Program-made: the position numbers and the translations under genes
From: Gammaproteobacteria bacterium
GTDB lineage: Bacteria; Pseudomonadota; Gammaproteobacteria; SZUA-229
Length of the DNA stretch: 64,000 nucleotides
Assembly: GCA_029882355.1 (NCBI GenBank)
Contig: JAOUKV010000020.1
Coordinates: 1 to 64,000, forward strand
Direction of reading: 5' to 3'
Part shown: positions 28,263 to 30,506 of the stretch, piece after piece
Layout of the letters: each line of letters opens with the position of its first letter
How positions within the stretch are numbered: position 1 is the first letter of the stretch
The notes under the pieces: model-generated
The model's input: only the letters and a program-made list of their open reading frames with translations
The model's database searches: none
Told to the model about the DNA's origin: nothing

Positions 28263-28291
28263 TTGACTTTATAAGCATTCCTGCATATTCT
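28263..28291 (+). promoter_or_regulatory. sigma-70-like promoter of the globule-protein locus
   Basis: TTGACT (28263-28268), a 17-base spacer and TATTCT (28286-28291) lie about 65 bases before the first globule gene's ATG. The -35 matches five of six consensus bases and the -10 four. No operator was recognised in the flanking AT-rich sequence. Confidence 0.5.
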
Positions 28292-28354
28292 AATAACCAT
28301 AAGTTCTGATGGACTTAAGGCGCATGAATTCTAACTAAAATGAGACTAAATATT

Positions 28355-28750
28355 ATGAAAACTTTAAAAATAATTGCAATTGCTACATTCCTTGCTGCTT
28401 CTACTTCAGCTAACGCTTGGTGGGGTCCTTTTAACAACAACAACGGTTACAACAACGGCGGATATAACAACGGTTATAACGGTTATAACAATGGTTATGG
28501 TAACGGTGCTGGTAACGGTAGTGGTGACTTTGACGGCGGTGGCGACTTTTCTTTCGGTATGAGTGCTAAAGGAAATGGTAACGGTTATGGCAGTGGTAAT
28601 GGTAATGGCTACAACGGTTATAACGGTAATAACAGCTACAACGGTTATAACGGTTACAATGGTTATAACGGTGCTCCATATGGTTACAACGGCGCTCCTT
28701 ACGGTTATGCTCCAGCTCAGGCTCCAGCTCAAGCTCCAGCAGCTAACTAA
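28355..28750 (+). CDS. sulfur-globule-like Gly/Asn/Tyr-rich exported protein 1
   Basis: A 131-residue exported protein. The signal peptide MKTLKIIAIATFLAASTSANA would be cut before WWGPF. The mature part is almost entirely Gly, Asn and Tyr in (N)GYNG-type repeats, with one acidic patch (GSGDFDGGGDFSFGMS) and an Ala/Pro/Gln tail (APAQAPAQAPAAN). WWGPF followed by Gly/Asn/Tyr repeats is the pattern of sulfur globule proteins, which coat elemental sulfur stored in the periplasm of sulfur oxidisers. No sulfur oxidation gene lies in the window, so the role is inferred. ATG 28340 is in frame, but 28355 gives a clean signal. A terminator follows at once. Confidence 0.75.
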   Translation: MKTLKIIAIATFLAASTSANAWWGPFNNNNGYNNGGYNNGYNGYNNGYGNGAGNGSGDFDGGGDFSFGMSAKGNGNGYGSGNGNGYNGYNGNNSYNGYNGYNGYNGAPYGYNGAPYGYAPAQAPAQAPAAN

Positions 28751-28778
28751 GGAACTACCTTACGGTAGATTAGTGAAG

Positions 28779-28814
28779 AAAAGGTCAGACACTGAATAGT
28801 GCCTGACCTTTTTT
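28779..28814 (+). terminator. intrinsic terminator between globule gene 1 and its neighbour
   Basis: AAAAGGTCAG-A-CACT-GAAT-AGTG-C-CTGACCTTTTTT forms a 7+4 base-pair hairpin with one internal mismatch and ends in six Ts. It lies 28 bases after the first globule gene and 27 bases before the next start, so it should limit read-through into the membrane partner. Confidence 0.9.
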
Positions 28815-28840
28815 ATTACAGATTTAATTGGGAGAATGTA

Positions 28841-29503
28841 ATGAGTGAATCAAATTCAGATAACAAAGCTGTAGTTGAAAAAGTGACGAAAGCAAAGAAA
28901 ACCGCGAAAGCTAAAAAAGTAGAAGAAGTGGTTGCTAGTGAAGTCGTTGTTGAGAAAATGGCTGTAGAAAAAGAAGAGGTAATTACAGCACCATATATCT
29001 CTACTGAGAAAAAAGAAGATGTTTCAAAATCTTATGCCAGTTATTTTGCAATAGCGGCTAGTGTTGTATTTGTCGCCGTATTAACTACAGTCACTTTCTT
29101 TGAAGATGAGTATCAGTCTGCTCTAGCCAGTTTAGAAACATTCATCACTGCTGATGAAGTGGTTAGTGAGTCTACTGTTGCAAGTAACAATAGTAGTCAG
29201 ATGTCAGATCAGATTGTGCAAACTAATTATGGTTATCAGCCAGTTGTTATGAATCAAGCTAGCAATAATTCATATAACGAAGTGCGGAACAATCAGCGTG
29301 CTGCATTTGAAGAATCAATGCGTCAGCATGATCAAAAAATGGCTGAAAGACGTGAGCTAAGAACTGCTGCTTTCAAAAATATGGATCAAACCAGGATTGA
29401 TAGACAGAAGAAATTTGAAGTAATGCGTGAAAAAACTCAGCAGATTCAAATAGAAATGCAGCAGAAAATGCAAGCAGCATATAACGAGTTTCACTCGATC
29501 TAA
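28841..29503 (+). CDS. membrane-anchored partner of the globule-like proteins
   Basis: A 220-residue protein from ATG 28841, preceded by GGGAGAATG. Residues 1-60 are Lys/Glu/Val-rich (KVTKAKKTAKAKKVEEVVAS), histone-tail-like. One membrane helix follows (SYFAIAASVVFVAVLTTVTFF, about 68-88). The outer part has a Ser/Asn/Gln-rich linker and a C-terminal helix rich in Arg, Met and Gln (RAAFEESMRQHDQKMAERRE). That helix resembles the C-terminus of globule-like protein 2 (QMEAQRAAFVKQMEERRAA), both with Q-R-A-A-F-x-x-x-M. It is flanked by the two globule genes. I know no family for it; a membrane tether for globule assembly is inference. Confidence 0.7.
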   Translation: MSESNSDNKAVVEKVTKAKKTAKAKKVEEVVASEVVVEKMAVEKEEVITAPYISTEKKEDVSKSYASYFAIAASVVFVAVLTTVTFFEDEYQSALASLETFITADEVVSESTVASNNSSQMSDQIVQTNYGYQPVVMNQASNNSYNEVRNNQRAAFEESMRQHDQKMAERRELRTAAFKNMDQTRIDRQKKFEVMREKTQQIQIEMQQKMQAAYNEFHSI

Positions 29504-29556
29504 TTTGAACTGAAGTATTTGAGTTATTTACAGACTAATTTTTTGAGGAAGAACAA

Positions 29557-30192
29557 ATGAAAACATTAAAAATAATTGCTGCAGTGGCAGCGCTGGTTAT
29601 CTCATCATCTGCAAATGCATGGTGGGGCCCTTTTGGTAATAATAATGGTTATAACAACAACAGTTATAACGGAAATAACAATGGCAACGGTTATGGTAAC
29701 GGAAATGGTTACGGTAACGGTGCTGGCAATTTCGATGGTGACTTCGGTTTTAATATGAATGCACGTGGAAATGGTCGCGGAAACGGTAACGGTAATGGCT
29801 ACAATGGTTATAACGGTAGCAATAACTATAACGGTAGCAATAACTATAACGGTAGTAATGGTTATAACGGCTACAATGGTTATGCTCCAGCTCCTTACGG
29901 TCAGGCTCCTGCTCCAGCTCCAGTAGCACAGGCTCCAGCTGTTCAGGCACCTGCTCCAGTTCAAAACGGTCAGGCTCCATACGGTTATGCTCCAGCTCCT
30001 TACGGACAGGCACAAAATGGCCAGGCTCCTTACGGCTACGCTCCTATGACTCAGGAGCAGATGGAAGCTCAACGCGCTGCATTTGTTAAGCAGATGGAAG
30101 AACGACGTGCTGCTGATCAAAAGCACCATGAAGAGATGATGAAGAAAATGCACGAAGCTCGTGCAAATAAAGATGGTGCTAATAAAAGCTAA
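29557..30192 (+). CDS. sulfur-globule-like exported protein 2 with a C-terminal helix
   Basis: A 211-residue exported protein with signal MKTLKIIAAVAALVISSSANA and a mature start WWGPF, as in globule-like protein 1. A Gly/Asn/Tyr region of NGYGNG and YNGSNNYNGS repeats runs to about residue 105. It is followed by a Pro/Ala/Gln-rich segment with QAPYGYAPAPYG repeats and a charged helix (MTQEQMEAQRAAFVKQMEER...HHEEMMKKMHEARA) not found in protein 1. The helix shares its core with the neighbouring membrane protein, which suggests pairing. GAGGAAG precedes the ATG. Two terminators follow. Confidence 0.75.
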   Translation: MKTLKIIAAVAALVISSSANAWWGPFGNNNGYNNNSYNGNNNGNGYGNGNGYGNGAGNFDGDFGFNMNARGNGRGNGNGNGYNGYNGSNNYNGSNNYNGSNGYNGYNGYAPAPYGQAPAPAPVAQAPAVQAPAPVQNGQAPYGYAPAPYGQAQNGQAPYGYAPMTQEQMEAQRAAFVKQMEERRAADQKHHEEMMKKMHEARANKDGANKS

Positions 30193-30205
30193 TCTTTAGT
30201 AAAAA

Positions 30206-30242
30206 AACGGATTTTAGTGATATGTCTGAAGTCCGTTGTTTT
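30206..30242 (+). terminator. intrinsic terminator after globule gene 2
   Basis: AACGGATTTTAG (30206-30217) pairs over 12 bases with CTGAAGTCCGTT (30226-30237), including two G-U pairs, around an 8-base loop, followed by GTTTT. It lies 14 bases after the stop of the second globule gene. Confidence 0.8.
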
Positions 30243-30506
30243 GAGTGTATGCGTTGCTAACGCAGACCTGCTTATCTGAAACAGAGTTTCATTCATGACA
30301 GTGTAACCAGGTTTAGCAGAAGTCATGCGCTGCTAGGGTGCGATAGTTTAGGCTATCGTGCCCATTTTTATTTTAGGGGTACCCTTTTCCCCCTTCCTCG
30401 GGCAGTCCATGCCCACAGTGTTCTAATCAAGCCGCATTAACGTGAATAGATCATCATTCTGATATAATGCATGGCTAATCAAGAATAATCATTTGGGATA
30501 CTGACA
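30243..30506 (+). other. intergenic region, possible small RNA and promoter of isocitrate dehydrogenase
   Basis: Between two terminators this region holds a small hairpin (TGCGTTGCTAACGCA near 30249-30263) and then a stretch with partly complementary arms (CCTGCTT and TTTAGCAG). After the second terminator, TGATATAATG near 30460-30470 matches an extended -10 element suitable for transcription of the dehydrogenase gene. No open frame with a signal peptide or ribosome site is evident here. Confidence 0.35.
30336..30374 (+). terminator. second intrinsic terminator downstream of the globule locus
   Basis: GGGTGCGATAG (30336-30346) pairs with CTATCGTGCCC (30353-30363), 11 pairs with two G-U pairs and a 6-base loop, and is followed by ATTTTTATTTT. 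It stands about 95 bases after the first terminator, with no gene between, so it either is a back-up or ends a separate short transcript. Confidence 0.8.

Follow-up and report, generated by a model that had tools for sequence, protein, structure and literature searches.

The 64,000-nucleotide stretch analysed here (the window) carries a gene for a single-span membrane protein, TM-A, placed between two genes for sulfur-globule-like proteins, sgp1 and sgp2. The comparisons described below support the view that TM-A, a membrane protein, belongs specifically to globule-coat loci. It may well be an inner-membrane-anchored factor of the globule coat, for which we infer coat binding and tethering, and its most likely role would be that of a membrane tether or assembly anchor. 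A second family of membrane proteins, TM-B, was found in a similar position in related genomes. Our literature search, which left most subscription journals outside its range, found no membrane anchor for sulfur globules in open-access papers; within that literature, TM-A and TM-B point to a membrane component of globule storage that has not been previously described.

Both coat genes are on the forward strand, as are all TM-A and hairpin features given below. The sgp1 gene (28355–28750) codes for an exported protein of 131 aa with WWGPF, Gly/Asn/Tyr repeats and a GDFSFGM core. The product of sgp2 (29557–30192), an exported protein of 211 aa, has WWGPF and the repeats and, in our alignment with its relatives, a C-terminal helical tail. 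This tail (30052–30180, residues 166–208) is predicted by AlphaFold with pLDDT ~90, and outside of it and the signal peptide the protein is predicted to be disordered. The two signal peptides are nearly identical and of the Sec type, as read from the sequence and alignments rather than with a predictor, and the mature parts are of Gly/aromatic low complexity. Thus, the exported WWGPF-repeat proteins with matching signal peptides reported in the first-pass annotation are present as described. Their identity as sulfur globule proteins, also proposed there, is borne out by Pfam: sgp1 scored 28.6 bits against PF17228 (cut-off 26.7 bits), sgp2 was borderline at 26.6 bits and rose to 27.9 bits once frame neighbours were included, and 14 of 15 aligned relatives matched at E <= 0.01. 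These matches support membership of sgp1 and sgp2 in the sulfur globule protein family and make them candidate coat proteins. The host has four coat genes: two in the window, one on contig 12 and one on contig 27. Elsewhere in the window (32803–32910), a short in-frame tandem repeat, reading PDPRYP on one strand and GVWIT on the other, follows an isocitrate dehydrogenase gene.

A role in globules would be hard to maintain in an organism lacking all sulfur-oxidation genes, as had been pointed out in the first-pass annotation. This is not the case for the host (genome of 2.88 Mb, 98% complete), because dsrAB and soxB are both in its genome. Profile searches detected dsrA at 622 bits, well over the cut-off and with dsrB adjoining, and soxB at 731 bits; dsrE, dsrF, dsrH, dsrC and further dsr-like genes were read by eye downstream of dsrAB. 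These genes support the assignment of the host as a sulfur-oxidising bacterium that uses the rDsr route, by way of stored sulfur. Its closest DsrA relatives belong to gammaproteobacterial metagenome bins, including 8_1_July_SF_Bin66 and N3S-Bin_7, and we found no report in the literature of globules seen in these uncultured organisms.

The TM-A gene (28841–29503) encodes 220 aa from an internal ATG. Consistent with its earlier description as a single-span protein between two globule genes, hydropathy gave one span at residues 68–87 (29042–29101, GRAVY 2.17), which lies in an AlphaFold helix of residues 66–111, and the positive-inside rule predicts an N-in/C-out topology. In the AlphaFold model, a disordered N-tail is followed by the membrane helix, a linker and an unbroken helix of residues 139–219 (29255–29497), i.e. 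a single amphipathic helix of 81 residues, predicted to be periplasmic, with pLDDT ~98. Residues 1–62 have pLDDT below 50, so that the cytoplasmic tail is predicted to be disordered. This tail had been called Lys-rich and suggested as a possible binder of nucleic acid or acidic proteins; the Lys content is indeed 19%, but the net charge is 0, and a nucleic-acid-binding tail was therefore rejected for the TM-A of the window. Among TM-A relatives the tail ranges from ~27 to 85 residues, and basic AKPK/AKKT-type tails are present only in some of them. The TM-A sequence is weakly conserved except at its motifs. It matched no TolA/TonB, phasin or chaperone family in Pfam, no chaperone domain in NCBIfam, and no known single-span envelope family in either; no relative was found in PDB. 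A Pfam scan of TM-B likewise gave no phasin or chaperone family.

Recurrence of the three-gene order, which had been suggested as a check, was found across several genera. A sequence search recovered TM-A from four further genomes of its genus and, with weak matches, from other genera; profile searches extended this recovery. The loci that were read repeat one layout: a coat gene, a membrane gene, and then a coat gene or a gene for a helical exported protein. Two families of membrane proteins occupy the middle position. In TM-A, the kind found in the window, a TFFEDEY-like motif comes after the span. The next gene usually codes for a helix-tailed exported protein: in the genus of the window and several others this is a coat protein that bears a tail, whereas in genus g11 it has lost the coat repeats. 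TM-B, characterized by the motif KYAVVAVIMVSIIVTTAIML and by a C-terminal -RI in 8 of 8 aligned members, is absent from the genus of the window and elsewhere also lies between coat genes. The last residues are frequently -I or -M in TM-A and, for most helix-tailed coat proteins, -KS; together with the -RI of TM-B, these endings may represent a free C-terminal signature.

The linkage of TM-A and TM-B to coat genes exceeds chance. In a script-based analysis of 24 membrane genes, drawn from several genera within one little-studied gammaproteobacterial family, all 24 were directly preceded by a coat gene on their own strand. This set was fetched by membrane-protein similarity, and four TM-A-like paralogues of g11 without a coat neighbour were left out of it. 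Coat genes were also found beside the membrane gene in five further genomes (L186–L190), and in each of the 17 genomes with TM-B, the distance from TM-B to a coat gene was at most ~0.5 kb. Coat genes occurred in 41 of 54 genomes of the family, and all 27 genomes with TM-A or TM-B were among these 41 (27/41 coat-positive versus 0/13 coat-negative genomes; Fisher p = 1.8e-5, with no correction for phylogeny or for the completeness of the bins); in the remaining 14 coat-positive genomes neither protein was detected. The membrane protein could have proved to occur mostly away from globule genes, but the exceptions are the four g11 paralogues (L050:5735-6577, L182:3757-4563, L183:3804-4577 and L184:1618-2346). 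In three of them, the cytoplasmic tail is a long, histone-like Lys/Ala/Pro stretch.

Outside the family, a class-wide search of 369 genomes also returned L070, L072, L073 and L074; no coat gene was nearby in the DNA read, and chance similarity between helices probably explains these four. A possible distant case comes from a different gammaproteobacterial family, where the gene of a long helix protein and a coat-like gene are arranged tail-to-tail (L071:3941-6004). Among 44 genomes chosen by DsrA similarity, TM-A matches were found in only 6, and none in A. humboldtianum, Marichromatium, Thiorhodococcus or other Chromatiaceae. Because of this distribution, the TM-A trait is considered largely lineage-specific; since it was not found in these cultured Chromatiaceae, globules can form in the absence of TM-A.

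The first-pass annotation inferred that the outer helix of TM-A and that at the C-terminus of sgp2 pair with each other; taken as a coiled coil, such a pair would tether the globule. The two motifs on which this was based, QRAAFEESMRQ in TM-A and QRAAFVKQMEE in sgp2, are both present as written. Their similarity (QRAAF...M) is in register and modestly above that expected from composition (p = 0.016 with plain shuffles and 0.024 with pattern-keeping shuffles), and it favors pairing, as does the usual position of a helix-tailed exported protein directly after TM-A, even where coat repeats are lost. However, helix similarity is above composition in most loci and equal within and between them (mean Z of 2.56 for same-locus versus 2.40 for cross-genus comparisons), so the resemblance itself holds and the pair specificity does not. 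Averaged periodicity peaked at 3.60 residues in TM-A, 3.64 in TM-B and 3.60 in sgp2-type tails, peaks that 0 of 300 shuffles reached. In TM-A, the power was 6.17 at 3.6 and 1.64 at 3.5, the left-handed coiled-coil period, and TM-A thus lacks the 3.5-residue periodicity of a canonical heptad coiled coil. The shorter sgp2-type tails also had raised power at 3.5 (2.51 versus 3.33 at 3.6), and the TM-A of the window, taken alone, had no outstanding period (p = 0.37).

The distribution of residues around these helices was also analyzed. In TM-A, TM-B and the tails, Met, Ile and Phe occupy the hydrophobic face together with Arg, which was excluded from the scale that defined this face, and Glu, Gln and Lys occupy the opposite one. 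The mean cosine of Arg to the hydrophobic face was +0.25 in TM-A, +0.15 in TM-B and +0.45 in sgp2-type tails, compared with -0.15 in other amphipathic segments of the same DNA, controls that came from long proteins and possibly included two cluster members, which would shrink the contrast and not enlarge it. Each of the three groups showed a strong separation of Arg from Lys, which held for TM-A and the tails when every genus was represented by a single sequence; for individual proteins, it was not significant in the TM-A of the window (p = 0.14) and gave p = 0.016 in the sgp2 tail. Since Arg lies on the hydrophobic face and Glu on the other one in both TM-A and sgp2, these like-charged faces would repel each other, and complementary charges are not apparent. 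As the main mechanism, pairing is supported neither by locus comparisons nor by periodicity, and we consider it unlikely. Given the period of 3.60 rather than 3.5 and the division into Met/Arg and Glu/Lys faces, straight amphipathic helices that bind a shared coat or globule surface fit the data better. We read TM-A, TM-B and the sgp2-type tails as sharing a surface-binding helix, whose partner could be either the globule itself or its Tyr-rich coat.

A strong hairpin resembling an intrinsic terminator and followed by a T run lies between sgp1 and TM-A (28779–28815, AAAAGGTCAGACACTGAATAGTGCCTGACCTTTTTT). It was not listed by a simple consensus terminator scan. Two terminator-like hairpins were found after sgp2 by terminator scan (30206–30237 and 30336–30363). 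Counting hairpins of -13 kcal/mol or stronger, 19 of the 24 loci have one between the coat and membrane genes, with its position kept and stem sequences changed. The hairpin in the window fits a high output of coat and a low output of anchor, or separate transcription of TM-A. Expression below that of the coat would also agree with TM-A and TM-B acting as assembly or export factors, namely membrane-bound chaperones, which would pass coat proteins from the Sec translocon to the globule and form no lasting tether. Such a function shares the genomic association with coat genes, and low-complexity coat proteins are likely aggregation-prone. However, chaperones do not usually consist of a long bare helix, and neither a chaperone domain in Pfam or NCBIfam nor a PDB relative was found; a chaperone role is therefore rather improbable.

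Another conceivable role for TM-A is that of a signalling or anti-sigma-like sensor of the periplasmic coat or sulfur state that would regulate the cluster via its cytoplasmic tail. The single-span N-in/C-out topology and a very weak NCBIfam anti-sigma match are in line with this, but the match (15.5 bits) is far below the cut-off of 100, the tail is of variable length and predicted disorder, and no regulator is located beside TM-A in the window, making a sensor very unlikely. Least probable, and disfavoured, is a general envelope helix protein (TolA/TonB-like or other) that neighbors coat genes by chance, as the g11 paralogues apart from coat genes might suggest: adjacency in the 24 loci persists although their outer neighbours differ between genera, TM-B shows the same habit, and no TolA/TonB match was found in Pfam.

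The preferred reading of TM-A as an anchored coat factor can be compared with known systems. The phasin PhaF has a Lys/Ala-rich tail. Phasins such as PhaF of Pseudomonas putida (PMC3574117) are helical proteins that coat hydrophobic granules used for storage, and they offer a possible working analogy; however, they are cytoplasmic, have no membrane span and serve a different granule, and TM-A has no phasin match in Pfam. In Sec signal peptide, Gly/aromatic low complexity, PF17228 and a host with dsr and sox genes, sgp1 and sgp2 are similar to SgpA, SgpB and SgpC of Allochromatium vinosum. They differ in that the coat proteins here are Asn/Tyr-rich with a conserved GDFDGxFSFxM core, that sgp2 has an extra helical tail and that the coat genes are grouped with membrane-protein genes, whereas sgpA, sgpB and sgpC are at separate loci, as judged by locus tags (PMC10386293). 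SgpD (Alvin_2515) of A. vinosum is exported, globule-bound, possibly coiled-coil and not essential, and its gene adjoins a hydrophobic/amphiphilic exporter gene (PMC10386293). By context and description rather than by sequence, one coat gene of the host (L185, contig 27) is similar in being near an exporter; TM-A, unlike SgpD, is a membrane protein.

This second locus on contig 27 (L185:4193-8281) contains a coat gene, an RND exporter, a DUF4412 protein, a ParA/MinD-type ATPase (PF13614, PF01656), a TPR single-span protein and a single-span protein ending in a coat-like Asn/Tyr/Pro tail (L185:7619-8281). The last, a separate example of a coat-like protein with a membrane anchor, supports the view of TM-A. 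By eye, the arrangement of ParA and coat genes was read in eight other genomes (L194–L199, L201 and L202), which together with that of the host span seven genera, and it was absent from two further loci that were read. A dynamin-like GTPase is encoded near one coat/ParA locus (L196:4907-6439, PF00350 confirmed), with similar reading frames seen by eye in L199, L201 and L202 and none in the loci read in the genus of the window. ParA-type ATPases position cargo in McdA/McdB-type and other systems (PMC6328274), and a globule positioning system is conceivable, which is no evidence about TM-A itself. No ParA-type ATPase lies beside TM-A, and for cargo in the periplasm an adaptor that spans the membrane would be required. 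Among the open-access papers searched, none used the whole words "sulfur globule" and "ParA" together. We regard as speculative an organelle-like system in which a membrane-anchored coat (TM-A, TM-B and the coat-like single-span protein) is linked across the inner membrane to the ParA-type ATPase, with a dynamin-like GTPase in some genera. If it existed, periplasmic globules would be shaped, anchored and positioned for inheritance.

In the model that we favor for TM-A, the sgp1, TM-A and sgp2 genes would form one unit of a sulfur-globule coat system, in which sgp1 and sgp2 supply exported low-complexity coat proteins. TM-A, with a short cytoplasmic tail, one span and a flexible linker, would extend an amphipathic helix of ~12 nm into the periplasm, where its Met/Ile/Arg face may bind the growing globule or the Tyr/Trp/Asn-rich coat, possibly through Arg-Tyr and Met-hydrophobic contacts. 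TM-A would thereby hold or nucleate the coat at the inner membrane. The sgp2 tail, replaced in some other genera by a separate exported helical protein, might bind the same surface from the periplasmic side, and the terminator after sgp1 could allow the coat to be made in excess over the anchor. Thus, of the tethering or seeding proposed in the first-pass annotation, the tether itself fits the topology and the link to coat loci, but its formation by paired helices is not supported.

For the question of how periplasmic sulfur globules are nucleated, held and inherited, only soluble coat proteins, SgpA–D, have been described, and the role of SgpD has been called unclear (PMC10386293, PMC12481199). 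Candidates for the missing link to the membrane can now be named in TM-A and TM-B, two families tied to coat genes, and sgp1/TM-A/sgp2 would provide a testable unit for heterologous expression.
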